A stretch of DNA of 64,000 bases from contig NZ_CP132333.1 of the NCBI RefSeq assembly GCF_030758935.1, forward strand, positions 62,001-126,000, in the 5' to 3' direction. The stretch comes from Geothrix sp. PMB-07 (GTDB lineage Bacteria > Acidobacteriota > Holophagae > Holophagales > Holophagaceae). A program made the translations under genes and the position numbers. How positions within the stretch are numbered: position 1 is the stretch's first letter; each line of letters opens with the position of its first letter. Below the pieces are notes generated by a model that had not been told where the DNA came from, searched no databases, and was given only the letters and a program-made list of their open reading frames with translations. Shown here piece after piece: positions 6,183-33,235 of this stretch.

Positions 6183-6950
6183 ATGAAAACCGATGTTTCA
6201 GTGGTCATGACGACCGTTTGTCGGGACTCGGTCTACCGGGCCGCAAGGTCTGTCTTTCAGCAGGACTATGAAGGGACGATCCAACTCATTCTTGGTGTCG
6301 ATGTCGAGAAGTTCGGGGACTTCTCCGAAATCATTAGAAACCTGGCCGCGGAATGTCCTCCTCGCCGTGTCTTGACCCCCATCAACCTCGGCTATTCGAC
6401 TTCGGCCCGGCATGGCGGGGTGCACAGCAGCTGGTACGGCGGCTCCTTGCGCACCGCCCTGAGTTTTTTGGCCTCGTCGGAATGGATCGCCTACCTGGAT
6501 GACGACGACTGGTACGAGCCGCAGCACCTTCGCACCCTGCTGGCAGCCGCGCAGGGCAACAGCTGGGCATTTGCCCTGTCGAACTATGCGGATTCAAACG
6601 AAAACAGGATTCTCGGTGTGGACACGATCGAAAGCGTGGGCCCCAATCGCGGCGTGTATCGCGAAAAATTCGGCGGATTTGTGAGGCCATCGGCTTTGAT
6701 GATCAACAAGATCAAACTCTCCCTCATCCTGCACCTGTGGTCGGTGGCTCCCTTTGCCACGGGCGATGGGGAAGACCGGCTGATCTTCAACGAACTCCGG
6801 AAATTCCCCGATTTCGGAGAGACGGGACTTCCAACCGTGAACTGTGCTCTGGATCCGGCGGATGGCATGCATGCGCACCGCCTGGCTTCCTTGTCGGCTC
6901 CTGTGGCCGCTTCTGGCCCCAAGCATCAGTCGCTGCGGAACCAGGCCTAG
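6183..6950 (+). CDS. Family 2 glycosyltransferase
   Basis: The 255-residue product is a GT-A type inverting glycosyltransferase. It opens with the nucleotide-binding strand 'MKTDVSVVMTTVCRD' and carries the metal/nucleotide-sugar motif 'YLDDDDW' at about 104-110. No membrane helix is visible, so it is probably cytoplasmic and adds one sugar to a glycan intermediate. The ATG at 6183 has a GGGAG ribosome-binding site 7 bases upstream; the longer reading from 6117 lacks one. It is the only plus-strand gene of the glycan locus and converges on the next gene, their stop codons sharing the palindrome CTAG at 6947-6950. Donor and acceptor cannot be told from sequence. Confidence 0.9.
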   Translation: MKTDVSVVMTTVCRDSVYRAARSVFQQDYEGTIQLILGVDVEKFGDFSEIIRNLAAECPPRRVLTPINLGYSTSARHGGVHSSWYGGSLRTALSFLASSEWIAYLDDDDWYEPQHLRTLLAAAQGNSWAFALSNYADSNENRILGVDTIESVGPNRGVYREKFGGFVRPSALMINKIKLSLILHLWSVAPFATGDGEDRLIFNELRKFPDFGETGLPTVNCALDPADGMHAHRLASLSAPVAASGPKHQSLRNQA

Positions 6951-7960
6951 GCGTTTTGCCCTTGCCAACTCTGCGCCAGGCGGGAGCCCCAGGTTCCTCG
7001 CAGGCCCTGGATCACCTTTGAATCGGGGCGCACCCAGCTGACCTGCTGGAAGGCGCGGAGGTGTTGCCAAAGATCCGCGGCCTGCTCAACCCACACGATG
7101 GATGGAGGAGTGGCCTGCCCCCTTGGCTTCAGGGCCGCGTCGAGGGAGGCGCGGGCAGAAGCCGGATTCGCCAGCAGGAGCAGCGCCACAGGATCGTCTG
7201 CGGTAAAGGCCTGCACATAGCTGAGCAGGACGGCTTCCCAATCGGCGGACCCCCTATCCGGTTCGAGCAGGAAGGCTTGGGATTGGGGCGTGGGAGTGGT
7301 TCCGGCGACGCCTGGCGCTGTTCCACCGGCAGCATCAGCCAGGGTGTCGTAGGTTCCCAGGGTGGAGGCCCATGCCTGCTTGGCATAGACCGGCCCACTG
7401 CCCGTATAGGTCAACCCGGTGTAATGCTCGGGCATGAAGAAGTGGCTGGGGAGCACGGTGAGGTTGGAATAATTCTCGGCGATCCAGGTTTGAGTGAGGT
7501 AGAGCGGGCCCACGGACTGCCACGCGTCACGATCGGTGACGGTGGGCTGCTTGCGGAGGCCTTCGATCAGGGTGGCGAGAAAGCGCGTGCCGGGAATGGT
7601 TCCGAAATACCCGGCGGCGATCAGCCTGGGGCGGGCCAGTTCGTTTTCCCAGCTGGCGAAGGCTTCGCATTCCAGCAACCAGGCCGGGAGCGGCCGGACA
7701 CAGCAGCTGTCGGCATCCACCAACACGCCGCCCTCTTCATGCAGGATCTCCCAGCGCATCATGTCCGCGACGCCATTCCATTCGCGCTTGGCCATGGCTT
7801 CCATGTGGTGCCCATTGATCCAGCGGCGGCCAGCCAGGTCTTCATTGCCCCAGAGTTTGACTTCCCAGTCGGGGTGGTGATCCACCCAGGTCTGGATGAA
7901 TCGGTTGGGCCGCTTGGATTCATCCCCGACCCAGATGAGGTGGATGATCTTGGGGATCAT
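6947..7960 (-). CDS. DXD-motif glycosyltransferase with shared C-terminal domain
   Basis: The first 200 or so residues match the 'glycosyltransferase sugar-binding region containing DXD motif' family (OCH1/capsular type). The protein opens 'MIPKIIHLIWVG', has 'WNGVADMMRWEILHEEGG' and 'VDADS' with the DXD at about 82-84. Residues about 228-337 form a separate domain ('WEAVLLSYVQAF', 'DPVALLLL', 'SWVRPD') repeated in the three genes upstream. The ATG at 7960 overlaps the stop of the methyltransferase gene (ATGA), so it is the last gene of the operon and translationally coupled. An earlier in-frame ATG at 8278 gives a low-complexity out-of-frame product and was rejected. The sugar specificity is unknown. 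Confidence 0.9.
   Translation of the reverse strand: MIPKIIHLIWVGDESKRPNRFIQTWVDHHPDWEVKLWGNEDLAGRRWINGHHMEAMAKREWNGVADMMRWEILHEEGGVLVDADSCCVRPLPAWLLECEAFASWENELARPRLIAAGYFGTIPGTRFLATLIEGLRKQPTVTDRDAWQSVGPLYLTQTWIAENYSNLTVLPSHFFMPEHYTGLTYTGSGPVYAKQAWASTLGTYDTLADAAGGTAPGVAGTTPTPQSQAFLLEPDRGSADWEAVLLSYVQAFTADDPVALLLLANPASARASLDAALKPRGQATPPSIVWVEQAADLWQHLRAFQQVSWVRPDSKVIQGLRGTWGSRLAQSWQGQNA
6950..7279 (-). repeat. Shared C-terminal domain, copy A
   Basis: This is a 110-residue protein-level repeat at the end of the DXD glycosyltransferase. Landmarks are 'QAFLLEP', 'W..VL..Y..AF', 'DDPVALLLL' and 'VSWV'. It is slightly shorter between the two strands than the other copies. Confidence 0.75.
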
Positions 7961-9141
7961 GCCCTTCCCCGTTGAAGCAAAGCCCGGTTGAACCGGGCAC
8001 CCATGGGCCCATCGAGCGGCGCGTCGGCAGAAGGTCCTGAGGCGACCCACTGCGCGTGATCGTAGTTCCGGAGGGTCTCCAGGAGCTCTTCCGGTTGATC
8101 GACAAGCACGATGTCCGGGAAGGCTTCGATGCCAGCCTGAGTGGCCAGCTCGAGGATGGCCTGCTGAACCGTTTCCAGCGGGTGGCCATGGGGATCGCTT
8201 CCATGCAGAAGCAGAATCAGGGCCACCGGCTCTCCCTGCCGGAAGGTCTCGAAGTAACTCAGGATGACTTCGAGCCATTCATCCCTGTCCCAGGCGGGGT
8301 CGTGGATGAATGCCTCGCGAACCGGCTGGATCTGGGGCCCAAGGGTTTTCAGCCAGAAGGAGCAACCGTTCCTTTCAATGCCACGCAGGGGGCCACCGGT
8401 CCATATCTCATCGAGAATGGAAATCAGTGGCTGGTCATAAATGATGAATTTACACGGTAAAATGATTTCCAGCTTAGGGCCCTGGGCCAAAAGATAACAA
8501 GCTAGACCGTATTGTTCAGAATAATAACGGTTTACCCAATCAGCAGGATAATCATAGGGGAGACAGATATCGTGGAAGTGAACCAGCACACCTGGAGAGA
8601 GCATGGGAAGGATGTCCAGGAAGCTGACCGTCGAATCGGAATTCATAAACATGCGGTGCGAGTTGTCGAAGAACAGAATGTCGCCTTCGCCGAGTAGCGA
8701 AAACACTTCGAGATCAACCTCCTCGCAACGCTTCCGGATGACCTGATCGCAGAGGGCATCGATCTCGGCCCGCGGATCCGGATCAATGGAGATGATTTTG
8801 GTTTTGAGGCCATGGTCTGAGATGGCCTTCCGGGCGAACTTGGTCGAATTTCCGGATCCAACCTCAATGTAATAATTGGGATTGTTTTTTGCGAGAAAGC
8901 AATAGAGTGCCATGCTGTCCAGCGGCGGGATCCATCCGTTCTCCCAGTTGGGTTGAGCGGGGGTGTTGGCCGGAGTGACCGGAATTTGCTTGAAATGAGG
9001 AATGAGCGATCGAATCTCTTGGAGCCACTTCGCGTACACCTCGCGGTTTTGATTGATGATGGCGTACAGGTGACGATTGGGCTTCTCGACGGGGTACCTG
9101 GGCTTGGAAACGAAGGGATAATCCAAAGTGATTTGATACAT
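7957..9141 (-). CDS. Class I SAM-dependent methyltransferase with shared C-terminal domain
   Basis: The N-terminal 270 or so residues form a methyltransferase fold with the SAM-binding motif 'YIEVGSGNST' at about 91-100, an acidic strand 'IISIDPDP', and 'GDILFFDNSH' and 'VHFHDI'. This is the Methyltransf_24 type found in glycan clusters. The last 119 residues are copy B of the shared domain. The methyltransferase part is clearly AT-richer than its neighbours (for example 8400-9140) while the tail is GC-rich, which suggests separate origins. I chose ATG 9141 for its typical N-terminus. ATG 9177 is possible and neither has a strong ribosome-binding site. The next gene overlaps its stop codon. 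Confidence 0.85.
   Translation of the reverse strand: MYQITLDYPFVSKPRYPVEKPNRHLYAIINQNREVYAKWLQEIRSLIPHFKQIPVTPANTPAQPNWENGWIPPLDSMALYCFLAKNNPNYYIEVGSGNSTKFARKAISDHGLKTKIISIDPDPRAEIDALCDQVIRKRCEEVDLEVFSLLGEGDILFFDNSHRMFMNSDSTVSFLDILPMLSPGVLVHFHDICLPYDYPADWVNRYYSEQYGLACYLLAQGPKLEIILPCKFIIYDQPLISILDEIWTGGPLRGIERNGCSFWLKTLGPQIQPVREAFIHDPAWDRDEWLEVILSYFETFRQGEPVALILLLHGSDPHGHPLETVQQAILELATQAGIEAFPDIVLVDQPEELLETLRNYDHAQWVASGPSADAPLDGPMGARFNRALLQRGRA
7960..8316 (-). repeat. Shared C-terminal domain, copy B
   Basis: A 119-residue copy at the end of the methyltransferase. Landmarks are 'EAFIHDPAW', 'EWLEVILSYFETF', 'EPVALILL', 'FPDIVLVDQPEELLETLRNY' and 'AQWV'. Confidence 0.8.
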
Positions 9142-9228
9142 AACGGGCGGCGCTCCAGGGGCTTCAATGCAATTCATTCAGACATAGGTGGTTATAACAA
9201 ATGAGGCTTTTCCTCTGTAGAAGTTTAT

Positions 9229-12200
9229 CTAGGCGTGATTTTTCAGGGATTGAGAGAGTTGTTGGCCCAGGATACCCCTCAGGCTTTCGACATTCCACTG
9301 ACCAGAGCGTACCCAGCTGATGTGGGGGTAGGGCTTGATCTGCTCGAGGATCTCTTCGGGCCGATCCACGAGGACCACTTTGGGAAAGGCTTCCTGGTTC
9401 ATGCTGGCCATCACTTCGAGTACGGATTGTCCCGCCTCCGCCGGGTCGATCTGTCCGGGTTGGGTAGGATCGATGAGGATGATCAGGGCCACGGGATCGT
9501 CTGGGCTGAATGCGGTGAGGTAGCCGTGCAGCACTTCGACCCATTCATAGGCGTTCCACTCGGGCTCGAACAGGAAGGCCTGAGCGGCGGGTTGGGACGC
9601 GTGGAAATCTGACGCGCCCGGGGCTGGATGAAGGCGCGCGAGGGCCTGCTTGAAAAAGCGCCGGTAGTCCTCCATGCGCGCGCGCCAATCGAAATGGCCG
9701 CAGACGGATTCCCGGGCCCGGGCACCCAGCCTTTGGCGCAGCGCCGGATCATCCCGCAGACGAAGAATGGCCTGGGAGATGGCCTCGAAATCACGGGGCA
9801 CGATGAGAGCACTGAGACCGTCTTCCAGGAATTCAGGCACCGTGCCCACGTCGGTGGTCACGATGGCCCGGGCCATGGAAGCTGCCTCCATCAAGGAGTT
9901 GTTGTGCCCTTCGCTGGCCGATGTGCAGATGTAGACATCGATTGACTCATAGAATCCCCGCATCTCGTCGAGGGTCAGCATGCGGTCGCTGTAGCCGCAG
10001 ATCTCAAGCTCGACGCCTGGCAGGGTGGCCAGGGGGGCGATGAAGGCGTCATAACCTTTGATGGCCGCAGCCCGGTTGCCGGCCCAGCCCACCCGGAGCT
10101 TGCCCGGCGTGGCCTGGGGGGCATGCCGTGAGGAGAAGAACTCCGTGTCCACGCCATGGGGAAGGGCCAGCGCGGCGGGAAGCTCCGGCTGGAAGATGCT
10201 CAGCAGGCGCTGCGACACCACGTAGACGCCGCCCTGGTAGAGCTGGTTCAGATGCTGCGCCAGCGCGGAAGGCTCCCAGCCATCCCAGCTCGTATGGGAG
10301 CGGATGCCCGCCACCCACTTGGCTGGAGTGCGCACATGTTCCGGATTGACCATGTGCCACTCCAGGGGGTGGATGAGGTCATAGCGCGCCTCGTCTACGG
10401 GCTGGCCCCGGAATTTGATGTCCATGCCGTAGGCGATGTCGATGTCGAACTCGTCCGCCAGGCGTTCCTGCATCACGTGGGCGTGGCGGTCGAAGATCCA
10501 GTTGGGCACGTCCGCGATGATGAGGAGACGGGGCCGGCGGGGTGGTGGCCCCGGGGGATTCAGGGCCAGCCACTGGGACCCGATGATGCCCGCGGGGGAA
10601 TGGGGCCACTGCGCTACGAGCTGTCTCAGCCCCCGGCGGGCGGCGCGCAAATCGCCCCTTTCCGCGGCTTTTGTCACGAGATCAGCGGCCTGCACGGGCG
10701 TTTCGGCCCTTTCCTCGGCCGGGGCTTTCGAATGGATTTCAGCGGGCTGCGCCTTCGACGGAAGGGGCAGATCCCGGTGCTGGCGCAGCCATTCTTCCAG
10801 GAAGAGCAGCAGCCAGAGGGTCGGTGTGGCCGCACCCTCCAGCAGGGTCTTCATGACCGTTGGGCGGAAGTACTCTCTCAGGGAAGAATCCTCGCCCAGC
10901 AAGCGCGCCATCAACTTGCTGTAGGCCTCTCCGCCAGGGGCGAGCCACCGCGCCACAGGCATGGCGAAGCCCATCTTGGGGCGGTTGAGGAACGCATCGG
11001 GGAAGAAGCGACGGGCCACCCGTTTCAGCATGGCCTTCCGGTTCCAGGAACCGTCTCCGGCTCGGATCATGGAAAAGGAGGAAGGCAGTTTCGCGGCCTC
11101 TTCGATCACCCGGAGATCCACGAAGGGCGTCCGGACTTCGAGCCCGTGCATCATGCTGGCGATGTCGACCTTGGTGAGGATGTCGAAAGGCAGGTAGGTG
11201 TTGATGTCCATGTACTGCACGCGGGCCAGGCCGGAAAACGATTGGGACTCCGACCACAGCTGCTCGAAAAGCTCCTGGCGCGGCTGGAAGGCGGACTGGA
11301 ATTCGGGCCGCCACAGGGCGGACCGGACGGGCCCATCGGTGTAGTGGATGCACCGGATCCAGTCGTAGACGTTGGAGGTCGGGTTGGACATCCAGGAGGC
11401 CTGGGTTCCATAGCCCGCGAACAGCTCATCGGCGCCATCACCCGAGAGCACCATGGGCACGCTGGCCCGGGCCAGCTTGCACACGTGCCAGGTGGGCAGG
11501 GCCGAGCTGTCGCCGAAGGGTTCGCCGTAGTGCTGCACCAGGCTTGGCAGGAGCGACAGTGCATCGCTGCCCATTTCGCCCCGCGTGTGGATCGTTGCGC
11601 AGGTTTTGGCGGCGAAGGCCGCATAGCTGGTTTCGTCGAATTCCGATTCCTTGAACCCGATGCTGAAGGTGCGCACGCGGTCGCTGAGGAGTTCGCTCAT
11701 TTCGGCCACGACAAGGCTGGAATCCACTCCGCCGGACAGGAAGGCGCCGAAGGGCACATCGGACATCAGGTGGGCATCCACCGATTCCTTCACCACGGTG
11801 GCAATGCGCTCCTCCCAGTCGGCGGCCGATACGCCGGGTTCGGGGTCGAAGCGCATGGACCAGTAGCGGCGGGGCTTTTCCACCGCTCCGTCGAAACCCA
11901 CCCGCAGGCGGTGCGCCGGAGGCAGCTTCCGGATCTGGCGATAGGCGCTGCTCGGGGAGGGGATGTATTGCAGCCAGAGGTACTGGTCGATGGCGGTCAA
12001 ATCCAGGGACCCGTTGAAGCCTGGTGTGAGCAGCAGCGGGCTGATCTCGGAGCCGAAGGAGATGGCCTCCTCGGTCTCGCACCAGACCAGGGGCTTGATG
12101 CCGAAGTGATCCCGAGCCAGGAAGACGCAGCCCTGGCGATAATCCGCAATGCCAAAGGCGAACATGCCCCGGAAGCGATCCACGCAGCAGTCGCCCCACT

Positions 12201-12522
12201 CTTCCCAGGCGTGGATGACCACCTCGGTGTCCGAGCGGGTCTTGAACTGGTGCCCGCGGCTCTGGAGCTGGGTCATCAGTTCCTTGTAGTTGTAGATCTC
12301 GCCGTTGAACGTGATCCAGACCGACCCGTCCTCGTTGCTCATGGGCTGGTGCCCGCCGGTGGGATCGATGATGGAGAGGCGGCGATGGCCAAGCCCCACC
12401 GGGCCTTCGATGCGAACGCCTTCACCGTCTGGTCCGCGGTGGGCGATCCGGCGGGTCATGTTCCGGAGGATGTCCTCGGGGTAGATTCCGCCCTTGGTGA
12501 TCAGGCCGACGATTCCACACAT
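9229..12522 (-). CDS. Asparagine synthase-type amidotransferase fused to GT4 glycosyltransferase and shared domain
   Basis: A 1097-residue fusion. Residues 1-590 are a complete glutamine-dependent asparagine synthase: 'MCGIVG' gives the Cys nucleophile of the glutaminase after Met removal, 'RIAHRGPDG' and 'NGEIYN' follow, and the ATP-pyrophosphatase motif 'LSGGVDSS' lies near 263-270. A TPR-like linker follows. Residues about 675-980 are a GT4 glycosyltransferase ('PHGVDTEFF', 'SASEGHNNSLMEAASMARAIV'). Residues 981-1097 are copy C of the shared domain. The ATG at 12522 has a GGAG site. In glycan loci such synthases usually amidate uronic acids, so a coupled amidation and sugar-transfer role is inferred. 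The intact motifs indicate active glutaminase and synthase sites. Confidence 0.92.
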   Translation of the reverse strand: MCGIVGLITKGGIYPEDILRNMTRRIAHRGPDGEGVRIEGPVGLGHRRLSIIDPTGGHQPMSNEDGSVWITFNGEIYNYKELMTQLQSRGHQFKTRSDTEVVIHAWEEWGDCCVDRFRGMFAFGIADYRQGCVFLARDHFGIKPLVWCETEEAISFGSEISPLLLTPGFNGSLDLTAIDQYLWLQYIPSPSSAYRQIRKLPPAHRLRVGFDGAVEKPRRYWSMRFDPEPGVSAADWEERIATVVKESVDAHLMSDVPFGAFLSGGVDSSLVVAEMSELLSDRVRTFSIGFKESEFDETSYAAFAAKTCATIHTRGEMGSDALSLLPSLVQHYGEPFGDSSALPTWHVCKLARASVPMVLSGDGADELFAGYGTQASWMSNPTSNVYDWIRCIHYTDGPVRSALWRPEFQSAFQPRQELFEQLWSESQSFSGLARVQYMDINTYLPFDILTKVDIASMMHGLEVRTPFVDLRVIEEAAKLPSSFSMIRAGDGSWNRKAMLKRVARRFFPDAFLNRPKMGFAMPVARWLAPGGEAYSKLMARLLGEDSSLREYFRPTVMKTLLEGAATPTLWLLLFLEEWLRQHRDLPLPSKAQPAEIHSKAPAEERAETPVQAADLVTKAAERGDLRAARRGLRQLVAQWPHSPAGIIGSQWLALNPPGPPPRRPRLLIIADVPNWIFDRHAHVMQERLADEFDIDIAYGMDIKFRGQPVDEARYDLIHPLEWHMVNPEHVRTPAKWVAGIRSHTSWDGWEPSALAQHLNQLYQGGVYVVSQRLLSIFQPELPAALALPHGVDTEFFSSRHAPQATPGKLRVGWAGNRAAAIKGYDAFIAPLATLPGVELEICGYSDRMLTLDEMRGFYESIDVYICTSASEGHNNSLMEAASMARAIVTTDVGTVPEFLEDGLSALIVPRDFEAISQAILRLRDDPALRQRLGARARESVCGHFDWRARMEDYRRFFKQALARLHPAPGASDFHASQPAAQAFLFEPEWNAYEWVEVLHGYLTAFSPDDPVALIILIDPTQPGQIDPAEAGQSVLEVMASMNQEAFPKVVLVDRPEEILEQIKPYPHISWVRSGQWNVESLRGILGQQLSQSLKNHA
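9232..9582 (-). repeat. Shared C-terminal domain, copy C
   Basis: A 117-residue copy at the end of the AsnB-GT4 fusion. Landmarks are 'QAFLFEPEW', 'EWVEVLHGYLTAF', 'DDPVALIILIDP', 'FPKVVLVDRPEEILEQI' and 'ISWVR'. Confidence 0.82.
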
Positions 12523-12523
12523 A

Positions 12524-13690
12524 TCAGCGCTCCGCCTTCCCGGCTTCGGTCAGCACACGGTCCATGGTCGCCACCAGGACCTGTTGAACGGCCTGGGGGG
12601 AGTGGCAGGTTCGGGCGCGCTGGAAGGCCCGGGAGGCCAGGCCATCCAGCCAGGCAGAATCCCGCCGCGCCCGGTTCAGCAAAGCCAGGAACCGGTCCAC
12701 GTCGCCGTGGGCGCTGGCCGCGCAACCGTGATCGGCGCACCAGCCATCCGGATCGGCGCTGAGAAAGAGGGTGGGGCAGCCCACCATGGCGCCCTGGAGC
12801 ATCAGGTTTGGAAAGCCTTCCAGGGGGCTCGTGTTGACCATGGCGCGGGAGGAAACCATGAGTGAGCGTAGCTCCTCCTGGCTGCCGAGACGGTCTGACA
12901 GGATCACATTCGGGGGCAGGTTGGAGCGCCAGGGCTCTGGAAGGGCCTGGAGCCCTCCGTTGCTGACCATGCGGAACGTGGCGTGTTCCATGTCCCGCGC
13001 CAGCTCGAAGAGGATGTCGGGGTTTTTGTCGGCGAGGGGACGGCCCACCCACAGGAAATCGAAGGCTGGATTCCCACTCCGGGCCGGTGCGTCGCGCTCC
13101 TGTTCCCAGCCCGCTGGAATGGGATTGGGCACCAGGGTGGCGATCCTGCCCACCTGGCGGTACAGCCGATCCTTCTGCCACTGGGTCTGGGCGAGCACCT
13201 CGGTGGCCCGGTGCAGGGCCTCCCAGGCGTGGAATTCCGGAACGAGGTATTCGTTCAGGATCATCGATCCGTTGAAGACCGAGTCGCGCAGGCTCTGGTC
13301 CGAAGCGATGCCCACCACGGCGGGAAGCCCCAGCTGCCGGGCCTGCCGGGTCATCTCGTAGGACACCTCGTTCGCGCCCAGCGACACGAAGCAGTCGGCC
13401 TGAAAGCCTGCGTACAGGTCTGTGATTTCGGGATTCGCCTGGAGGCTGTGGAAGGCGTGACGGGGGATCTGAAACAGGCCCAGGCCCTCCTTTGAGGTTT
13501 CAGGGAAGGGCAGATCCGGTTCGTTCAGCACGGCAAAGGAAACCCTGAAGCGGCCTGAGTCGATCAGCATCCGGGCGAAGGTCAGGGCGCGCACTTCGGC
13601 CCCGCCAAACGGCATCTTCGCGCCAGGGGTCAACAGACCCAGGGCGTTGATTTGGACGAAACAGATGCTGGGTTTGCCGGGTGCAGTCAT
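12524..13690 (-). CDS. Family 4 glycosyltransferase
   Basis: The 388-residue product is a GT-B retaining glycosyltransferase. It has an N-terminal acceptor domain with the glycine-rich loop 'MPFGGAEVRAL', the inter-domain strand 'FDFLWVGRPLADKNPD', and the donor-binding region 'SPLEGFPNLMLQGAMVGCP', which corresponds to the E-x7-E region although the second Glu is replaced. No signal or membrane segment is present. The ATG at 13690 follows an AAGG ribosome-binding site, and the gene ends one base before the AsnB-GT4 start, showing tight coupling. Unlike its neighbours it lacks the shared C-terminal domain. Donor sugar unknown. Confidence 0.88.
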   Translation of the reverse strand: MTAPGKPSICFVQINALGLLTPGAKMPFGGAEVRALTFARMLIDSGRFRVSFAVLNEPDLPFPETSKEGLGLFQIPRHAFHSLQANPEITDLYAGFQADCFVSLGANEVSYEMTRQARQLGLPAVVGIASDQSLRDSVFNGSMILNEYLVPEFHAWEALHRATEVLAQTQWQKDRLYRQVGRIATLVPNPIPAGWEQERDAPARSGNPAFDFLWVGRPLADKNPDILFELARDMEHATFRMVSNGGLQALPEPWRSNLPPNVILSDRLGSQEELRSLMVSSRAMVNTSPLEGFPNLMLQGAMVGCPTLFLSADPDGWCADHGCAASAHGDVDRFLALLNRARRDSAWLDGLASRAFQRARTCHSPQAVQQVLVATMDRVLTEAGKAER

Positions 13691-13750: not shown

Positions 13751-16222
13751 TTAGCAACCTTCGCGCCACCATGCGGTTCGCAACTGGTCGAAGCAGGCCT
13801 GCAAGGCATCTGGGGGGATGGGGTCCTTGGGAAGCCACGTGGCCCAGGGGTGATCCGGCAATTGATCCAGGAGCTCGGAGGGGTGGTCGAGGAGGATCAC
13901 CACAGGGAATGTCTCTCGGCCCGTTTCGGCCAGCACCTGCATCACGGCCTCCCCCACCTCGGCCGGAGGCGGTGAAGACACCAGGCCGCCTGGATCCGGC
14001 ACGAGGATCAGGGCCACGGGATCGCTGGGCGCGAAGGTCTCAAGGTAGGCCCGCAGCGTTCGGGTCCATCCGGGGTTCTCCCAGCGTGGCGCATACAGGA
14101 GGGCCGTTGAAGTGGGTCTGGGGCCTGCTGGGTGGCCGGTGTCGCAGGCGGCTCGGAACCAGGGGCCTGTGAAAGGGGAACAGAGGTCTTCGCCAGGTGC
14201 CGGGGCAGGGGGAACCCAGTGGAGGCACTGAAAGGCTCGGAGGCTTGTCAGCAGGTCGTCGGACCTTTCGAGCAGCGCAACGACGGGTGCCGCGCCTGGT
14301 GTCGCGGCACCGATGGCTGAGGCTAAGGCCTGCCCGGCGGCCTCTGCCGTGGGTGTCCCAGGTAGGCTTTCGTCGTGGAGGAGAAAGAGGGCCACCGGTT
14401 CCTCCGGATGGAAGGCGTTCAGATAGCCATTCAGTGCAGCCTCCCAAGAAGCGGAGGCCCAGTCAGGGGATAGCAGGAAGGCATCGCCGGTCGGGGGTGC
14501 TTCCGCCGTGCGCATCTGGAAAACCACGTCCAGATGGGTCGCGAGGAGTGCTTCATCGGTTGGGAAGATCCGAAGCATGGCCTCCAGCCCCTCCCTGGCG
14601 GCATGGAGGTTGTTCTCAGCTAGGGCCTTCCGCGTGGTTTGATCCAGCTCCTCCAGGGTGCGCTTCCTGAGGAAGAGCATCAGGTTGGGGGTTTCCATGA
14701 TGAGCAGGAAGGTGTTCCAGAACTCGCGGGAATCCTTGATCAGCCTGAGCAGGTAGTGTGTCAGCCCGCCCCGTTCCGCCAGCACGTACTCGACCTGATA
14801 GCGTTCGGCGAGGGCGTGGAAATCCCCGCCCGGATAGGGGTAGTTGCCACAGGCTTCGAGCAGCTCGTCCAAAGGCAGCAGCCTTGTGTCGATCATGGCC
14901 GCGGTCAGGACGGGATGGGGCGCACGGTGCAGGGCCTGCCAGTAGACGTTGCCCAGCGGCAGCAAAGGGCCCGGCGGAAGCTGGCGAAGGCGGTCAAAGA
15001 GGGCTTCGGATTGGTGGTAGTCCTCCTCGACCGGGCGCAGGGCATTCAGGTAGTCGCGCACGAAATAGACCGCGGACAGGACGGAGTAGGCGCCGAGCAC
15101 CACGAGCAGCCAGGGCGCCGCAGTCCAGGCACCGAGCGTGAACAGCAGCAGGGAAGGAAGGGTGATGGCCTCGAGGTACCGCTCGCCTTCACCCAGGAAC
15201 AACAGGCCCTTCTGCTTGGTGAGCAGGGCCCAGAGGACGCCGCATCCTGCCCAGACGAGCAGGAATCGCGCGTCGCCGTGAACCAGGTGCTTCCAGGGTG
15301 TGAGAAGCGGAAAGAGGACGATCTGGGGAAAGACCGTGACGAGCAGATGCAGGTAGTGCCTCGAGTGAAAGTACCAATCGAGGAAGGCGTGGAACTCCCC
15401 GCGGACCAGCTGCCCCACGGCCGTTCGGAGGCCTTCCAGGTAGCTTCGGAACGTCAGGATGTGCGGGTAAAGGAAGATTTTTTGGAGATGGGTGAAGTAG
15501 ACGGTGGAATGCGCAAGGCGGCCTCGGAGAATGTGCAGCGTCTTTCCGCCGGTTATCAGGGCCGAGGTCAGGAGGCAGGTGGCCATCAAGAGCAGGTGAA
15601 GCGGCGATATGAGCAGAGTGAAACCCAGCCCGAAGAGCAGAAACACCTGAGTGGAGAAGGTGGCCGTAAAGAGGAGCACGGCCCCGGCGAGCACGCTCAC
15701 CCCGAGCCAGGCGGGGTGGCCAGTGGTCCAACCCACATAGGCGGATAGGATGTGGGTGAGGAACAGGGCCTGCCCAGGGACCCGCGCACTGCCGTTGTAG
15801 GCTCGGGGGCCGGAGCCGATGCGCAGGAGGGCAGGGGCGAAGGCGTAAAGGCTGGCCGTGGTCAAAGCGACCCAAGGCGCGTTTGAGGCACCACCCCGCG
15901 TGGCGAACCACGAGCTGGCGGCGTAGACAATGACGAGAATCAGAGTGTCGAAAACGGCCCCCGTCGCGCGTTCCACCCAGGCCCGGGCGGAGGAAGGGAA
16001 GAGCGCGAGAAGGAAGTGGTAGCCGCAGGGATAGGTGTATTCGTTCTTCAGCAGCACGCCCGGGAGGGTGGGGGGAAGGCGGAACCGCCGCGATCGAATG
16101 AGCTCTGCACAGTACAGGTGATAGTAGGTATCCGACACGATGGCATTCTGCCGGAAGCACCGGGGGAGGAACCGGATGAGAAAGGTCACCACGGCCAGAA
16201 GCGCGAGAAGGCTCAAAGGCAT
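13751..16222 (-). CDS. Polytopic GT-C-like membrane protein with two shared C-terminal domains
   Basis: The 823-residue product starts with about 420 residues of transmembrane helices ('MPLSLLALLAVVTFLIRF' to 'LLVVLGAYSVLSAVYFV'). The first loop carries 'SDTYYHLYCAELI', reminiscent of the acidic catalytic motif of GT-C transferases such as PMT or oligosaccharyltransferases. A soluble region (about 430-575) follows, then two tandem copies of the shared domain (about 580-705 and 706-823). This is probably a lipid-sugar-dependent glycosyltransferase or glycan-assembly membrane protein. The ATG at 16222 has a GGAGCG site. Exact activity cannot be assigned. Confidence 0.85.
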   Translation of the reverse strand: MPLSLLALLAVVTFLIRFLPRCFRQNAIVSDTYYHLYCAELIRSRRFRLPPTLPGVLLKNEYTYPCGYHFLLALFPSSARAWVERATGAVFDTLILVIVYAASSWFATRGGASNAPWVALTTASLYAFAPALLRIGSGPRAYNGSARVPGQALFLTHILSAYVGWTTGHPAWLGVSVLAGAVLLFTATFSTQVFLLFGLGFTLLISPLHLLLMATCLLTSALITGGKTLHILRGRLAHSTVYFTHLQKIFLYPHILTFRSYLEGLRTAVGQLVRGEFHAFLDWYFHSRHYLHLLVTVFPQIVLFPLLTPWKHLVHGDARFLLVWAGCGVLWALLTKQKGLLFLGEGERYLEAITLPSLLLFTLGAWTAAPWLLVVLGAYSVLSAVYFVRDYLNALRPVEEDYHQSEALFDRLRQLPPGPLLPLGNVYWQALHRAPHPVLTAAMIDTRLLPLDELLEACGNYPYPGGDFHALAERYQVEYVLAERGGLTHYLLRLIKDSREFWNTFLLIMETPNLMLFLRKRTLEELDQTTRKALAENNLHAAREGLEAMLRIFPTDEALLATHLDVVFQMRTAEAPPTGDAFLLSPDWASASWEAALNGYLNAFHPEEPVALFLLHDESLPGTPTAEAAGQALASAIGAATPGAAPVVALLERSDDLLTSLRAFQCLHWVPPAPAPGEDLCSPFTGPWFRAACDTGHPAGPRPTSTALLYAPRWENPGWTRTLRAYLETFAPSDPVALILVPDPGGLVSSPPPAEVGEAVMQVLAETGRETFPVVILLDHPSELLDQLPDHPWATWLPKDPIPPDALQACFDQLRTAWWREGC
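13754..14107 (-). repeat. Shared C-terminal domain, copy D2
   Basis: A 118-residue second tandem copy at the very end of the membrane protein. Landmarks are 'GWTRTLRAYLETF', 'SDPVALILVPDP', 'FPVVILLDHPSELLDQL' and 'ATWLP'. Confidence 0.8.
14108..14485 (-). repeat. Shared C-terminal domain, copy D1
   Basis: A 126-residue first tandem copy in the membrane protein, including a short linker. Landmarks are 'DAFLLSPDW', 'SWEAALNGYLNAF', 'EEPVALFLLHD', 'SDDLLTSLRAF' and 'LHWVP'. It is the most diverged in its second half. Confidence 0.75.
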
Positions 16223-16283: not shown

Positions 16284-17177
16284 TCATCCTGTGGCTCCCT
16301 CAAATACGTATCCGGGCTGGCCGCGGAATTCACAGCACTCCCCATCGGCACCCAGGGTCCACGCCGCTCTCACACGCAGGGGGCGGTCTGCGCATTGCAC
16401 GAGCAGGCCGTTGCCATTGAGGCACGCCAGCAGGGAGCCAGGCTGGATCTCAGAAGGAGGCTCTGGGGTCCACTCGCTGGGACCGATGAACACGGGGATG
16501 CCTTGAAGGAGGGTGAAGGCGCCCCGGGTGTACGGCGGTGCCTGGGACCGGATGAAGTTGTGGATGGCCAGGGCCGACCGGTTCCAGTCGATCCTGCCAT
16601 CCGCCAAGGTCCGCTTGCGAAACCTGGTTGCCTTGGATTCATCCTGGGGGGTGAAGGAAAGTTCGCCCCGGCCGAATTGTGCGAGCGATTCCGGAATCCA
16701 CGCAGGCAACAGGGCATCGGCCTTCTGAAACACGTCGTTGATGGTTTCATCGAGGCCCACCTGGAAGGCACGCTGGCATAGGATGGGGCCTGCGTCTGGA
16801 ACGCGGCCCGCGCGGTGCAAGGTGTAGCCCACCTGCGATTCACCATGGATGAGGGCCCAGGTGAAAGCGTGCAGGCCCCGGTAGGCGGGCAGCAGCGAAT
16901 TGTGGCAGTTGAGGAAGAGCTGCCGGTCCAGCAGCTCGGGTTCGATGAGCTCCGGATAGGACAGCAACAGCACACAGTCGACGGGGGCGCGCGTCAGGAG
17001 CAGGGCGGGTGCCGTGTCTCCGGCGCAGCAGGGAACCACTCCCGCCGCCGTGCGAAGGCCCGCCAGACAGGCGTTATCGGTGCAGAGAACATGGCCGAGC
17101 TCGACACCGGCACGGCGGATGGCCGCCACGACGGCCGCTGCGGGTCCGCGCCCGGAGGTCCAAACCCCGAACCTCAC
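16284..17177 (-). CDS. Formyltransferase of the methionyl-tRNA formyltransferase family (probable sugar N-formyltransferase)
   Basis: The 297-residue product has the formyltransferase catalytic triad region: 'NCHNSLLPAYRGLHAFTWAL' supplies Asn and His, and 'VPDAGPIL' supplies the Asp. A C-terminal OB-like half follows. In glycan loci this fold uses N10-formyl-tetrahydrofolate to formylate an amino sugar, as in VioF, so that role is inferred rather than tRNA formylation. The GTG at 17177 overlaps the stop of the upstream GNAT gene (GTGA). The longer reading from 17276 adds 33 Arg-rich residues that are shadow sequence. It is one of two formyltransferase genes in the operon. Confidence 0.87.
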   Translation of the reverse strand: MRFGVWTSGRGPAAAVVAAIRRAGVELGHVLCTDNACLAGLRTAAGVVPCCAGDTAPALLLTRAPVDCVLLLSYPELIEPELLDRQLFLNCHNSLLPAYRGLHAFTWALIHGESQVGYTLHRAGRVPDAGPILCQRAFQVGLDETINDVFQKADALLPAWIPESLAQFGRGELSFTPQDESKATRFRKRTLADGRIDWNRSALAIHNFIRSQAPPYTRGAFTLLQGIPVFIGPSEWTPEPPSEIQPGSLLACLNGNGLLVQCADRPLRVRAAWTLGADGECCEFRGQPGYVFEGATG

Positions 17178-18142
17178 AGCGCCACCCCGAAGGTGTCGCG
17201 GAAATACCCTGAGGCGCCGAAGCTTTCCTTGAACTCGCTGAGGCTGGCGTTGACGACCATCTGGCTCGAGGAGCACCCAAGGTCGAGGTGGGTCCGTCCC
17301 GTCTCAAGGCACCACTGGATGGCATCGAGGGTGAGGAGCGTGAGGGCACTGGTATGCGCGTATTCCCGTGGACAGCTGGGATAGAAGGAGGTGATGCAGG
17401 TAGGACTGCAAAGGAAGACGTTGGCGGCCACGGGCACCCCTTCCAGCCAGGCGAGATCGACCTTGAGAAAGTTGGGATCGATGGTCCGGATGGCCCTCAA
17501 GTCGGCTTCTGAATGGGTGATGCCCTCACGTCCCAGCTGCTGCTTGGCCCGGACCACCAGCGCGTAGGCCGTTTCGAGAGGCGCGTTCCGCTGGAGGGTC
17601 ACTCCAAGCCTCCGCGCTTTGCGGGCCTGCGTCCGAGTGGATGAGTCGAGAGGGAGGAAGGGGTCGCTCACCCCCCCGAGATTGATGGCGTGGGTGATCT
17701 CGCGGTTCCTCAAGGTGAACCCTCGGCTGCAGAGGGCGAACTCTGCAGCATTGGTGTAGGACCTCGCATAGCAGGCAGGGGGCGTGGTGATCAGGCACTC
17801 ATGAACGCCCTGGTCCCGAAGGTGTTCCATCAATTGATCCACCAGCTCCAGCGCGTATTTGAGCCGCAGCTTGGGGCCGTGCACGAATCCACCGATGCTT
17901 GCGCCGAAGGGTGACCGTGCGACCTTCCGACCCTCCTCCAGAAAGATGCCCAGCGGGAGGACGGCGAAGAGGGTGCTTCCCTTCCGCCAGACCAGGTGAT
18001 GGGCGGTCTCCTTGAATCGAGCACTGTGGTATCCCAGGAAATCCTGCCGGTGGAAGAGTGAACCGTTGACAGCGCCTGCCACGAAGGCATCCCAGGCCTG
18101 TGCCTCGCCGGGCGCCAGGCGGCTAAGCGACAGGCCGGCCAT
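17174..18142 (-). CDS. FemAB/GNAT-like acyl- or aminoacyl-transferase
   Basis: The 322-residue product resembles the FemAB/BioF2-like double-GNAT fold. It has an N-terminal 'GSLFHRQDFLGYHSARF' segment, a central basic stretch 'TRTQARKARRLGVTLQ' and a C-terminal 'EGVPVAANVFLCS...YPSCPREYAHTSALTLL' segment typical of this group. Such proteins transfer acyl or aminoacyl groups to amino groups of peptidoglycan or sugars. The ATG at 18142 has a GGAGG ribosome-binding site, and a CCGGG/CCCGG hairpin lies in the short upstream gap. Its place between a deacetylase and a formyltransferase suggests modification of an amino sugar. The exact donor is unknown. Confidence 0.8.
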   Translation of the reverse strand: MAGLSLSRLAPGEAQAWDAFVAGAVNGSLFHRQDFLGYHSARFKETAHHLVWRKGSTLFAVLPLGIFLEEGRKVARSPFGASIGGFVHGPKLRLKYALELVDQLMEHLRDQGVHECLITTPPACYARSYTNAAEFALCSRGFTLRNREITHAINLGGVSDPFLPLDSSTRTQARKARRLGVTLQRNAPLETAYALVVRAKQQLGREGITHSEADLRAIRTIDPNFLKVDLAWLEGVPVAANVFLCSPTCITSFYPSCPREYAHTSALTLLTLDAIQWCLETGRTHLDLGCSSSQMVVNASLSEFKESFGASGYFRDTFGVAL

Positions 18143-18190: not shown

Positions 18191-18904
18191 TCATGGGCAC
18201 GACTCCTCGAATGACCCCTCGGTCAATGCACCAAGGCACGTCGGTCGCAGATCCAGATGGGCAGCCTCCTTCAGAAGGGAGAGGAGAAGGTCGCGAACGC
18301 CGGGAACAGTGGAGCGGTTGCGGTGATCCAGCAGGGCCTTGGGATTCTGGAAGTGGGGGCGTGCGGTTTCATAGCGGTCGAGGGTTTCGGTGTTCAGGTA
18401 GATGTGAATGGGGTGGAAGTTGAGGATGTTCAGCCCCCGGCCGAGATCCAGACCCAGGGCATCGAAGGGCCTGCCGTAGAGGCAGTGCACATCGTCCTCC
18501 CAGTTGAAGGGGATGCGGAGCAGTCCGTTCCAGAGCCGCACCGGCGAGAGCGAACGAGCATAGGGGAGCAAGGTGTTGGCCTCGTAGGCCAGGCCCTGCT
18601 CTCGGAAGAGGGCGGCGAGACGGGAACTGGAGGTCAGGGAATGGGAACGCACCCCGATTGCGCCGGGGTAGTGGTGCTGGAGCTCTGCGAGAATGCTGGA
18701 AGCATGGCCGGTTCCGGCGCCCTCCAGAAGCGGGTTGAAGTTGGGGTGCAGGCCCACTTCGATTCCGGAGGCGGTCCGTTGAAGGAGCGGCGTGGCATGC
18801 GTGGCGAATACCGTGCAGAGCACCCCGTGGTGGGCGAAAAGCTCGAGGGTGTCGGCCAGCACGGCATCTGGGGCCCAATCGAGGTCGCAGGTAAAGGCGA
18901 TCAC
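18191..18904 (-). CDS. Polysaccharide deacetylase-like protein
   Basis: The 237-residue product begins 'VIAFTCDLDWAPDAVL', matching the metal-binding first motif of NodB-type deacetylases with a compact Asp pair. It also has 'EVGLHPNFNP' as a histidine motif and 'ILNFHPIHIYLN' as the late histidine motif. It probably removes an N-acetyl group from a sugar intermediate, leaving an amine for the formyltransferases or acyltransferase encoded next to it. The GTG at 18904 overlaps the stop of the upstream formyltransferase gene. The motifs are non-classical, so substrate and activity are inferred. Confidence 0.82.
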   Translation of the reverse strand: MIAFTCDLDWAPDAVLADTLELFAHHGVLCTVFATHATPLLQRTASGIEVGLHPNFNPLLEGAGTGHASSILAELQHHYPGAIGVRSHSLTSSSRLAALFREQGLAYEANTLLPYARSLSPVRLWNGLLRIPFNWEDDVHCLYGRPFDALGLDLGRGLNILNFHPIHIYLNTETLDRYETARPHFQNPKALLDHRNRSTVPGVRDLLLSLLKEAAHLDLRPTCLGALTEGSFEESCP

Positions 18905-19674
18905 GGCACCACCTCTGCATCCCACAGGATGACCTTTCGGCCTTCGATAAAGGTGAAGGCCCCTGGGTAGGGACGGGTCTGCGCGCGGATGAAGTTCCGG
19001 ATCCGCCGGGAATCCCAGGTCCAGTCGATGAGCCCATCCTCCGGGGAGCGCTGGGGCATCCGGAAGGCCTCCTCTTCCCGCTGGACGATGCGCAGTGCGG
19101 TCCCTTCCTTGATTCGAGGAAGTGCTTCGGAAAGGAGATCGAGAGACGCGGCTTCAGCGGACTTCAAGACCTCCTTGATGGTGTCACCCTCGCCGATCTC
19201 GAAGGACTTTTGGAGGATCAGGTCGCCGTTATCGACGCCTTCTCCGAAATGAAACAGGCTTACCCCGGTCTCACGTTCTCCTTGGATCATCGCCCAGACC
19301 AGCGGCGCTCCCCCGCGGTACTTGGGCAAGAGCGAGGCGTGGATGCCGATGCACCCCAGAGGTGCGAGATCCCGCATGGATTTCGGGATCATGTGGTACC
19401 AGCCAATGCAGATGATTAGATCCGGGGCCATGTGAGTCAGGTGGGGTTGGCATTCCCGCATCCCGTGCGCGGCTTCAACCACGGGAATCCCGTGTTGGGC
19501 GGCCAGCCCATGGAAGTCGGCGTGCAGGACATTGACCACCGGCTTCGAGGAATAGGAGATGTTGAATGCGGCGGGAAGGGTGAAGATGCCCACTATCTCG
19601 CCCAGGCCCTGGTCAAGGATGTGGGCGCAGCAGCGCCGCCCCAGTTCGGAAGCTCCGAAAAAGGCGATTCTCAT
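18901..19674 (-). CDS. Formyltransferase family protein (probable sugar N-formyltransferase)
   Basis: The 257-residue product has a Rossmann-type start 'MRIAFFGASELGRRC', the catalytic segment 'GIHASLLPKYRGGAPLVWAM' and 'FGEGVDNGDLI' containing the catalytic Asp, then a short C-terminal domain. It is shorter than tRNA formyltransferases (about 310 residues), which fits the sugar-modifying group. The ATG at 19674 overlaps the stop of the methyltransferase gene, and its own stop overlaps the deacetylase start, so the three genes are translationally coupled. Likely role: N-formylation of an amino sugar made by this operon. Confidence 0.88.
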   Translation of the reverse strand: MRIAFFGASELGRRCCAHILDQGLGEIVGIFTLPAAFNISYSSKPVVNVLHADFHGLAAQHGIPVVEAAHGMRECQPHLTHMAPDLIICIGWYHMIPKSMRDLAPLGCIGIHASLLPKYRGGAPLVWAMIQGERETGVSLFHFGEGVDNGDLILQKSFEIGEGDTIKEVLKSAEAASLDLLSEALPRIKEGTALRIVQREEEAFRMPQRSPEDGLIDWTWDSRRIRNFIRAQTRPYPGAFTFIEGRKVILWDAEVVP

Positions 19675-20624: not shown

Positions 20625-21821
20625 TCACACCTCCTTGGCCAAGTTGAGCAAGGATTCCACCACGAGGTTGAACTCCCCGTCCGTCATCCCGACGTACAAA
20701 GGGAGCGCAATGCTGAGTCGATCAGCGGCGTAGGCCTTCGGGAAATCGGCATCGGCCAGGCCATATCGCGCCTGGTAGTACTCCAGGGTGGGAACCGCGT
20801 GGGTGCCCTGCCGGGTGGCGATGCCCAGGGATTCCAGGCGGGCCATCAGGGTGTTGCGACGGCGGTTCAGCCGATCCACGCCAGCGAGGCTCAGCTGATC
20901 CACGGCTTCGCCCCCGTGGTAGAGGCAGACGTAGGACTGGTAGCCGTGGACATGGCCGGGAGGAACGAGGGTGGGGCTGAGGGCGCCGCAGCCCTGGAGC
21001 GCCGCGTCATAGCGGGCCGCTAGTGTGGTCCTGGCCTCCAGAATCCGCGCGACCTTGCCCATCTGGGCCACCCCGAGGGCACCTTGGAGATCGGTCATAC
21101 GGTAGTTGTAGCCCCGCGCGGCGAAGCCCGGAAGGAGGGATCCGCCCTCTTCCTGATGGCGCTGAAGGTCGCTCTTCCCAGCGCCGTGATCACGCAACGA
21201 GGAGAGGGTGCCAGCTAGGCGGCCATCGGCCGTGGTGACCATGCCGCCCTCGCCCGTGGTGATGCTCTTTCTGGGATGGAAGGAGAAGCATCCGGCATCG
21301 CCGAAGGTGCCCGCATGCTGGCCGCCCAGGCGTGCGCCCAGCCCGCAGGCGGCATCCTCCACCACCTTCAGTTGGTAGCGGCGAGCCAGATCCATCACCC
21401 GGGGCATGTCCACGCAGAGGCCGAAGAGGTGGACGGGCATGATGGCGCGAATGGTGCGGCCGCCATCCGCTTCCAGCAGGGCCTCGGCCTGGTTCAGGTC
21501 GAGGTTGAAGGTCGCGAGGTCGATGTCGCAGAAGGCCACGCGGGCGCCGGTGTATTCCACGGCATTGGCGCTGGCGATGTAGGTGAAGGAAGGTACGATC
21601 ACGCGATCACCCGGGCCGATGCCCAGGCCTTCCAGGGCCAGGTGCAGGGCCGTGGTGCAGTTGGAGGTGGCCTTGGCGAACGGCGCGCCGGTGAAGGCTC
21701 CAAAGAGTCGCTCGAACTCCGCCACATAGGGCCCCTGCACCAGCCATCCGCTTTCCAGGGGCTTCCGCACGAGCTCGAATTCGGTCTCATCGAAGCAGGG
21801 GCGGGTGATGGGAATGGGCAC
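20625..21821 (-). CDS. DegT/DnrJ/EryC1/StrS-family PLP-dependent sugar aminotransferase (WbpE-like)
   Basis: The 398-residue product is a fold-type I PLP enzyme that aminates a keto-sugar nucleotide. Motifs are 'VIVPSFTYIASANAVEYTGA', 'VVEDAACGLGA' and the PLP lysine in 'SFHPRKSITTGEGGM', with the C-terminal 'RQGTHAVPTLEYYQ' active-site loop. In WbpE-type pathways it converts UDP-3-keto-GlcNAcA to the 3-amino sugar. The WbpB- and WbpD-like genes upstream support that step. The GTG at 21821 has a GGGAG site five bases upstream. Confidence 0.93.
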   Translation of the reverse strand: MPIPITRPCFDETEFELVRKPLESGWLVQGPYVAEFERLFGAFTGAPFAKATSNCTTALHLALEGLGIGPGDRVIVPSFTYIASANAVEYTGARVAFCDIDLATFNLDLNQAEALLEADGGRTIRAIMPVHLFGLCVDMPRVMDLARRYQLKVVEDAACGLGARLGGQHAGTFGDAGCFSFHPRKSITTGEGGMVTTADGRLAGTLSSLRDHGAGKSDLQRHQEEGGSLLPGFAARGYNYRMTDLQGALGVAQMGKVARILEARTTLAARYDAALQGCGALSPTLVPPGHVHGYQSYVCLYHGGEAVDQLSLAGVDRLNRRRNTLMARLESLGIATRQGTHAVPTLEYYQARYGLADADFPKAYAADRLSIALPLYVGMTDGEFNLVVESLLNLAKEV

Positions 21822-23715: not shown

Positions 23716-24687
23716 TCACCCGTGCCGTTCACGGTGGGCGCGGCGCCAGGCGATGAGTTTCTGCAGGCCTTCGCGCAGTCCGATGGTGGTGCGGAAATCC
23801 AGATCGCGCTTGGCGCGGTCCGTACTGCCGATGCGGTTGGTGACGAAGGTGGGCCCGGCGGGTTCGTACTGGATGGAGAGGTTCGATCCAGTCAACTCCA
23901 GCAACAGTTCGCAGACTTCCTTGATGGAAGTTCGCGTGCCGCTGCCGATGTTGTAGAAGCGGTCACTGGCGTCGCTCTTGAGGGCACACACGTTGGCCCT
24001 GCCCACTTCCGAGACGTAGATGAAATCGTAGCTCTGGCTTCCGTCGCCGTAGACGATGGGGGGAAGGCCCTGGTCGATGCGGTCGAGGATTTTCATGATC
24101 ACGGCGATGTAGGCGCCCTTGTAGTCCTGGCGGGCACCATAGACGTTCATGTAGCGCAGGCCCGCATAGGGGAGGCCATAACGCTCGTTGAAGGCGCGGC
24201 ACATGGCTTCGCCCGCGATCTTGGTGGCCCCGTAGAAGGTGCGGTTGTTGAAGGGGTGCTCTTCGGTCATGGGGATGTCGACGGCATCGCCGTAGACCGA
24301 GGCGGAGGAGCTGTATACCAATCGCTTGATGTGGTGATCGCGGCAGGCCTCCAGCACGTTGAAGGTGCCACGGATGTTCACATCGAAGGCGGAGCGCGGG
24401 TATTCGTGGCACTGCAGCAGCCAGAGGGCGGCGAGGTGGATGACGTGGTCGGATTCCTTCATGGCCTGGCCCAGGATGTCGGTCTGCAGGATGTCGCCCC
24501 CGATTTCAAAGATGCGCACCCGGGGATCCTTCAAGGCCTCGGCGAGGTTCTCCCGGGTGCCCCGGCAGAAGTTGTCGTACACGATGATCTGGGCGACGTC
24601 TTCCTGAAGCAGGGCGTCCACGGCATGGGAGCCGATGAGGCCGGCGCCGCCGACGACCAGTACCCGGGAACCACGGATGTCAGGCAC
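23716..24687 (-). CDS. NAD-dependent nucleotide-sugar epimerase/dehydratase (extended SDR)
   Basis: The 323-residue product has the Rossmann motif 'VVGGAGLIGSH', 'IHLAALWLLQCHEYPRSAFDVNI', the Ser-Tyr-Lys catalytic set ('SSSASVYGD' and 'YGATK') and 'GLRYMNVYGARQDY', typical of GalE/WbpP-like enzymes. It probably epimerises C4 (or oxidises and reduces) a UDP-sugar of this pathway. The GTG at 24687 has a GGAGTG site and overlaps the end of the acetyltransferase gene by 8 bases. Exact substrate cannot be told; a UDP-uronic-acid epimerase is an alternative. Confidence 0.9.
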   Translation of the reverse strand: MPDIRGSRVLVVGGAGLIGSHAVDALLQEDVAQIIVYDNFCRGTRENLAEALKDPRVRIFEIGGDILQTDILGQAMKESDHVIHLAALWLLQCHEYPRSAFDVNIRGTFNVLEACRDHHIKRLVYSSSASVYGDAVDIPMTEEHPFNNRTFYGATKIAGEAMCRAFNERYGLPYAGLRYMNVYGARQDYKGAYIAVIMKILDRIDQGLPPIVYGDGSQSYDFIYVSEVGRANVCALKSDASDRFYNIGSGTRTSIKEVCELLLELTGSNLSIQYEPAGPTFVTNRIGSTDRAKRDLDFRTTIGLREGLQKLIAWRRAHRERHG

Positions 24688-25324: not shown

Positions 25325-25334
25325 GGGCGCTCCT

Positions 25335-26291: not shown

Positions 26292-26581
26292 GTCGGGTCT
26301 CCAGGCGTCGGAACAGGGCTTCCCCTCACTGGGGGCAACGAATGAATGGGATGGAGCAGGCATGCATTTTCCATTCCAGGGGGGGCAAAGGGGTAGGGTT
26401 TGCGCGAGGAGGCCTCCATCCTCTGCCTATGGCCATCGCCCCTGGGCCAGCCTCAAGGGTGGTCCGCAGTGCCCTGGACCTGGGTCTGCCAATTTCATGG
26501 CGCTTCCACGGGGAAAGGTCCTGTGGCGCCGAAAGGGCGTTTCGGTTTCCATGAAGCATCAGATCGACAACCAGGTGCGAC
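26292..26581. other. Divergent intergenic region between the glycan operon and the multi-module transferase gene
   Basis: This region must contain the promoters for the minus-strand operon and probably for the plus-strand 26582 gene. I see no clear -10/-35 pair or terminator. There are G-runs ('agggggggcaaaggggtaggg' near 26380) and no convincing small gene. An ATG at 26551 is out of frame with the downstream gene. Confidence 0.4.
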
Positions 26582-33118: not shown

Positions 33119-33180
33119 ATTTCGAATTTTTAAACATCTTATAATTAATAATTTACAAGTTGCCGAGAAAAAAAGTTAAA
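33119..33180 (+). promoter_or_regulatory. AT-rich flagellin promoter region
   Basis: This short stretch is very AT-rich in a GC-rich genome. It holds a perfect sigma70-type -10 (TATAAT, 33140-33145) and a sigma28-like -10 (GCCGAGAA, 33162-33169; consensus GCCGATAA). The TTGACG at 33113-33118 is 21 bases from TATAAT, too far for a normal pair. Which sigma factor is used cannot be decided. Confidence 0.5.
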
Positions 33181-33183
33181 GGT

Positions 33184-33203
33184 TTTCGGAGGCATTTCCG
33201 AAA
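33184..33203 (+). promoter_or_regulatory. Leader hairpin 5' of flagellin
   Basis: TTTCGGA (33184-33190) pairs with TCCGAAA (33197-33203) around a 6-base loop. If transcription starts in the AT-rich block this is near the 5' end of the flagellin mRNA and could protect it from decay. Confidence 0.4.
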
Positions 33204-33235
33204 GAGGGAGGGTCGGGGATTTCCCCTACACAACC

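Follow-up and report, generated by a model that had tools for sequence, protein, structure and literature searches.

Whether an open reading frame that joins an amidotransferase to a glycosyltransferase is a genuine enzyme fusion, and what such a protein would do for its host, is the question raised by a 1097-aa frame of Geothrix sp. PMB-07 (TRI; 9229–12522, − strand). We analyzed this frame within a 64,000-nt stretch of the chromosome (NZ_CP132333.1, positions 62,001 to 126,000; hereafter the window). The first-pass annotation had described an amidotransferase with intact Cys and ATP-pyrophosphatase motifs, a GT4 glycosyltransferase and a domain shared with neighbouring proteins, here called the tag, all fused in one frame. 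The frame indeed runs without interruption from ATG to TAG, and its third-position G+C lies between 0.61 and 0.95 along the whole length. When the frame is cut into blocks of 60 codons (19 blocks, the final one shorter), the third position is highest or joint highest in each of them, including those that span the two junctions. This steady signal indicates that a single frame is coding throughout.

Module 1 (aa 1–582; 10777–12522), whose boundary was set from the TIGR03104 and phrog matches (both 1–582), is a WbpS-like class-II glutamine amidotransferase with an Asn_synthase ATP-pyrophosphatase domain, as judged from Pfam, NCBIfam and motifs (GATase_7, residues 46–164, 1e-45; Asn_synthase, 240–580, 5.3e-78). 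All of the inspected motifs are intact, as originally annotated: Cys2, SGGVDSS from residue 263, SGDGADELFAGY from 360 and K516. A linker (aa 591–655; 10558–10752) leads to module 2 (aa 656–965; 9628–10557), a GT4 glycosyltransferase recognized by Pfam and alignment. Glyco_trans_1_4 (PF13692) matched residues 845–925 (4.7e-14; 53.3 bits against a gathering score of 27), and the C-terminal half was matched at 827–953 by Pfam and NCBIfam. The alignment places the GT4 residues at R817, K822 and E871-x7-E879; the two glutamates of this EX7E motif are invariant across three GT4-tag proteins. A loss of donor-binding residues in all homologues, which had been named as a ground for rejecting the fusion, was not found. 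The roles of these residues in the two catalytic modules are those that we presume from the respective enzyme kinds. Module 3 (aa 975–1097; 9232–9600) is the tag.

A search for the same architecture in other genomes, as the first-pass annotation had advised, found it in one other species, an uncultured Holophagaceae bacterium (G004, locus L048), where an orthologue of 1087 aa is 68% identical to TRI over 1098 columns. The gene order there is TPR, GT2-like, DXD-tag, TRI, GT4b. The last of these is a GT4-like gene that in the window lies 1 bp from TRI (12524–13690, − strand) and is 60% identical to its counterpart in the same place in G004. Because a full-length orthologue and the gene order are kept in an independent species, TRI is not a sequencing artefact; the frame break between its modules that would have refuted the fusion was not found. 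We conclude that TRI is a real fusion, conserved yet seldom encountered, in which familiar types of enzyme are followed by a tail domain that has no name; it is this joining and the tag that are unusual.

TRI is the thirteenth of fifteen genes in a tightly packed − strand run extending from a WbpB-like gene (starting at 26363) to a DXD-type transferase gene (ending at 6947). No intergenic gap exceeds 61 bp, and the run is predicted to form one transcription unit. It encodes a WbpB-like dehydrogenase (25335–26363; PDB 3oa2, 8.8e-103), a WbpD-type N-acetyltransferase (24680–25396; 7.9e-69 to PDB 3mqg, which we take to be Bordetella WlbB), a second, unfused AsnB-like amidotransferase recognized by Pfam, NCBIfam and motifs (21831–23711), a DegT aminotransferase whose nearest solved relatives are perosamine synthases (20625–21821), a WbmS-like deacetylase (18191–18925), a FemAB/GNAT-like transferase (17174–18142), an 823-aa protein with two tandem C-terminal tags and no Pfam match (13751–16222), a methyltransferase with a C-terminal tag (Methyltransf_24; 7957–9177) and the DXD-type glycosyltransferase, also with a C-terminal tag (Gly_transf_sug; 6947–7960), together with an epimerase and two formyltransferases. 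The likely start of the DXD enzyme, at 7960, lies within a longer frame (6947–8278). The unfused AsnB-like frame extends to 23732; it is a start at 23711 that brings the Cys to the N-terminus, in agreement with the earlier annotation. To the eye, the hydrophobic N-terminal part of the 823-aa protein resembles a membrane protein, and it could be a membrane glycosyltransferase of the island. Between 16284 and 19674, the WbmS-like and FemAB-like genes are flanked by the two formyltransferase genes, an arrangement reminiscent of N-acyl exchange of the Wbp/Vim type on a diamino-uronic acid.

On the other side of the − strand unit, 21–24 kb from TRI, the + strand encodes flagellin (33160–33879), FlaG (33957–34346) and FliD (34377–36353), next to a TPR-containing transferase that we read as SPINDLY-like (31278–32930), SPINDLY being the name that we assume for such TPR transferases. 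We take flagellin as the putative acceptor of the glycan made by the island. A further fusion occurs in the same region, where a frame of 1242 aa (26582–30310, + strand) combines a GT4 with a methyltransferase domain at its C-terminus.

The first-pass annotation had left the substrate of module 1 as a sugar acid or an aspartate-like residue. The highest-scoring NCBIfam model for TRI was TIGR03108 (eps_aminotran_1; 555.1 bits), whose cut-off of 816.9 was missed, and we therefore call the module WbpS-like rather than WbpS. TIGR01536 (asparagine synthase) was passed with 431.7 bits against a cut-off of 267.1, so automatic naming would yield asparagine synthase; this model is broad, and all five of the other AsnB-like proteins scanned pass it as well. 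TRI carries the N-terminal Cys, the GATase_7 domain and the Asn_synthase domain with SGGxDSS that mark the WbpS type, and it is encoded alongside Wbp genes, of WbpB and WbpD type in both islands and of WbpI type in that of G004. According to one report, WbpS and WbqG are members of the TIGR03108 family, deletion of wbpS in P. gingivalis stopped uronamide formation, and the uronamide precursor is supplied by the WbpA/B/E/D pathway (PMC7468200); another describes a truncated glycan upon wbpS disruption in H. pullorum (PMC6025236).

Comparison of the two islands provides the strongest evidence on the substrate, because the part common to both consists of the diacetamido-uronic acid genes. The G004 island contains WbpB-type (77% identical) and WbpD-type (75%) genes, an AsnB-like gene, flagellin, FlaG and FliD, and adds a WbpI-type 2-epimerase (1.2e-103) and a TviB-type UDP-GlcNAc dehydrogenase. 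The DegT, formyltransferase, WbmS-like and FemAB-like genes of the window had no match in the G004 stretches compared, where a different formyltransferase is present. The island in the window contains neither a WbpE-type gene nor a dehydrogenase gene of its own. Elsewhere in the genome we found a TviB-type dehydrogenase candidate (L090) and a candidate WbpE-like aminotransferase (L081), which matched a WbpE chain at 2.7e-79 and, more strongly, a scyllo-inositol transaminase chain at 3.4e-89. The co-conserved WbpB- and WbpD-type genes and the family containing WbpS and WbqG favor the sugar-acid half of the earlier proposal, and the housekeeping asparagine synthase B, a different protein encoded elsewhere in the genome (L006, 819 bits), speaks against the aspartate half. 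We infer with moderate confidence that module 1 acts on a sugar acid rather than on aspartate; this acid may be carried as the UDP-sugar or be linked to a lipid or protein.

Our main reading, to which we assign a probability of about 0.55, is that TRI is a bifunctional enzyme of flagellar glycan synthesis, in which a WbpS-like amidotransferase is fused to a GT4 that adds a uronic acid or uronamide residue, and to a non-catalytic tag. In module 1, glutamine would be stripped of its ammonia by the N-terminal Cys, and a 2-acetamido or 2,3-diacetamido uronic acid would be activated with ATP at its C6 carboxylate in the pyrophosphatase site, giving the uronamide. The GT4 would then attach the uronamide residue to the growing glycan or add the following sugar to that residue, with the fusion holding amidation and transfer together. 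The tag, found on several island enzymes, would be what is left of a GT4 donor half that has lost its catalytic role, and most likely a structural or assembly tail. The substrate, the order of the steps, the coupling of amidation to transfer, the role of the tag and flagellin as acceptor are all put forward here as proposals.

It counts against TRI as the uronamide maker that each island encodes a second AsnB-like protein that could do the same. The two AsnB-like proteins of each island are divergent (35% identity between module 1 and the unfused protein in the window), and the FemAB-like and formyltransferase genes suggest further N-acyl decoration, as would be expected if the unfused protein made the plain uronamide and module 1 acted after transfer or made a substituted amide. 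We nevertheless consider this division of labor unlikely, since TRI keeps the acidic residue of SGDG, whereas the unfused proteins (21831–23711 in the window; 8012–9928 of locus L079) have A or Q at that position of SGxG, from which it follows that their chemistry may differ from that of TRI, and since TRI scores 555 bits against the WbpS family model as compared to 452 bits for the unfused AsnB-like protein. That TRI is an ordinary asparagine synthase fused by chance to a GT4, with no function belonging to the fusion itself, would be compatible with its passing the TIGR01536 cut-off and with the rarity of the fusion (two of 47 genomes of the genus), but this is highly improbable: between the two species module 1 is kept at 77–82% and the GT4 at 70% with gene order conserved, and the housekeeping enzyme lies elsewhere.

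The rarity of the AsnB-GT4 fusion holds for all of the genomes and plasmids sampled. Two of the 47 genomes of the genus, that of the window included, carry the GT4 of TRI, which at 1e-15 was detected in 19 of 396 Acidobacteriota genomes. Among 18 listed Acidobacteriota places outside TRI and its orthologue, none of the six examined had AsnB within the stretch covered; the remaining 12 are frames of 378–752 aa. Among the best-scoring places of an Asn_synthase survey across 297 genomes, eight with frames of 810–1258 aa were examined, and none of these was a GT4 fusion; one was an AsnB-methyltransferase fusion, and the others were AsnB alone with an open frame upstream. The methyltransferase fusion (L095, 1641–4373; 911 aa; another Acidobacteriota genome) appears by eye to be AsnB continuing in frame into a methyltransferase-like part. 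When plasmids were searched with the whole TRI protein, none of the 595 records covered 80% of it, and the best match, from Photobacterium sp. GJ3, proved to be two separate genes. None of the titles and abstract openings retrieved from the open PMC literature describes an AsnB-GT4 fusion.

The GT4 and the tag also occur together without AsnB. A contig of a Nitrosomonadales MAG (L049) encodes a 793-aa protein in which the same GT4 (58% identical) is followed by a tag, and in which the N-terminal part looks by eye like another glycosyltransferase-like partner. Since the GT4-tag unit is found with a different N-terminal partner, it either predates the fusion to AsnB or moves more readily than that fusion does. 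A GT4-tag profile matched 12 of 300 genomes of that order, at full length solely in the MAG itself, whose contig is the last of its bin (8850 bp, 48% G+C) and may be misbinned; horizontal spread of the unit was rejected. The structure model of the GT4-tag unit (443 aa; pLDDT 58.6) was too poor for use.

The tag is indeed a shared C-terminal domain. Its five genomic copies all lie in the TRI cluster, where TRI, the methyltransferase and the DXD transferase have one each and the 823-aa protein carries a tandem pair. It was detected in seven of 60 relatives, including the genome of the window, and at E 0.001 in 13 of 396 Acidobacteriota genomes, 11 of which belong to the same family as the window; of the two outside it, one match is a GT4 domain (L077) and the other looks like chance (L078). 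In relatives the tag ends GT4, GT2, DXD and SPINDLY-like proteins, the domain names being assigned partly by eye; one protein read by eye as SPINDLY-like is found in another species of the genus (L076, 843–2816). The tag is not tied solely to flagellin genes, for five of 12 tag-bearing genomes had no flagellin match on the tag contig; in four, flagellin lay within 19 kb on the same contig, in one at 65 kb, and in two one-contig genomes hundreds of kb away.

The last 123 residues of TRI had no Pfam match. Pfam searches with 12 tags gave two single-member matches (0.016 and 0.025) that we take as chance, and PHROGs searches with two tags gave none; the tag is not a copy of any named functional domain. 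An AlphaFold model built from eight rows (pLDDT 88) alternates strand and helix four times. That the tag is an unrelated small Rossmann-like domain, binding for example a nucleotide or a protein, would fit this lack of Pfam matches above chance, and likewise the absence of any Foldseek match to the model at E ≤ 0.001 the VIA-align results, in which Z reached at most 6.5 with mixed folds and no GT-B match was prominent, and the shortness of the profile alignment described next (64 columns). This origin is doubtful, however. When the tag profile was compared with those of eleven GT4-type donor halves, the score was 39.7 (P 6.5e-6), as compared to at most 20.2 in 200 column shuffles and 8.9–16.8 in eight controls. 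In addition, a tag HMM search of 396 genomes picked up a genuine GT4 donor half in one that lacks tags (E 4.3e-5 within that genome). The C-terminal half of TRI's own GT4 subfamily is one of the eight low controls, and the matching halves are those of other multi-domain proteins. The alignment of 12 tags shows no conservation of EX7E, indicating that the tag is at most a degenerate GT4 relative and not a working GT4. From these comparisons, the tag is a probable degenerate, Rossmann-like GT4 donor half.

The tag also diverges far more than the catalytic modules to which it is joined. Between TRI and its orthologue, identity is 82% in the glutaminase, 77% in the synthetase, 70% in the GT4, 37% in the linker and 34% in the tag; for the DXD enzyme the values are 77% (catalytic part) versus 34% (tag). 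No such acceleration of the tag is seen in a close pair of genomes, G002/G032 (94% vs 90–94%). The tag of the G004 orthologue is 46% identical to the methyltransferase tag of the window versus 32% to the TRI tag, and a tree in which most other groupings are unresolved places it with the former with support 89/84. The methyltransferase-tag gene is absent from its place in G004; recombination between neighbouring tags may have removed it and left this likeness behind. The tag seems to move between genes. A bolder and rather unlikely version of our reading would make the tag a new family of assembly domains derived from half a GT4 and linking unrelated island enzymes (GT4, GT2, DXD transferase, methyltransferase, SPINDLY-like protein and the two-copy membrane-like protein) into one complex, with recombination swapping copies and rewiring the assembly line, and with TRI as its amidation-and-transfer station.

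Several known systems resemble TRI in part. WbpS, WbqG and P. gingivalis PGN_1234 (TIGR03108) likewise combine a class-II amidotransferase with Asn_synthase and are encoded with Wbp-pathway genes, whereas TRI is fused to a GT4 and a tag and scores under the family cut-off. The XrtA/PEP-CTERM amidotransferases, which share the family model, are stand-alone proteins that adjoin GT4 genes, as in Photobacterium sp. GJ3, but are not fused to them. The GT4 WIFDRHAH/WAHD-type subgroup has the EX7E and donor half of the TRI GT4; its Acidobacteriota relatives are stand-alone or otherwise fused and, unlike TRI, had AsnB in none of the six examined. As described in PMC7591256, FlmG of Caulobacter is, like TRI, modular, a flagellin glycosyltransferase with a non-catalytic protein-binding part; this part is an N-terminal TPR domain and there is no amidotransferase, whereas the extra domain of TRI is C-terminal and Rossmann-like. 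In the open PMC literature, no work on flagellar glycosylation was found with Geothrix in title or abstract. If our reading is correct, one protein would be responsible for making an amidated flagellar-glycan sugar and also for adding it, and half of a sugar transferase, no longer active, would serve as a module reused across many enzymes of a single pathway. How cytoplasmic glycan enzymes stay together would then become a testable question in the Holophagaceae.
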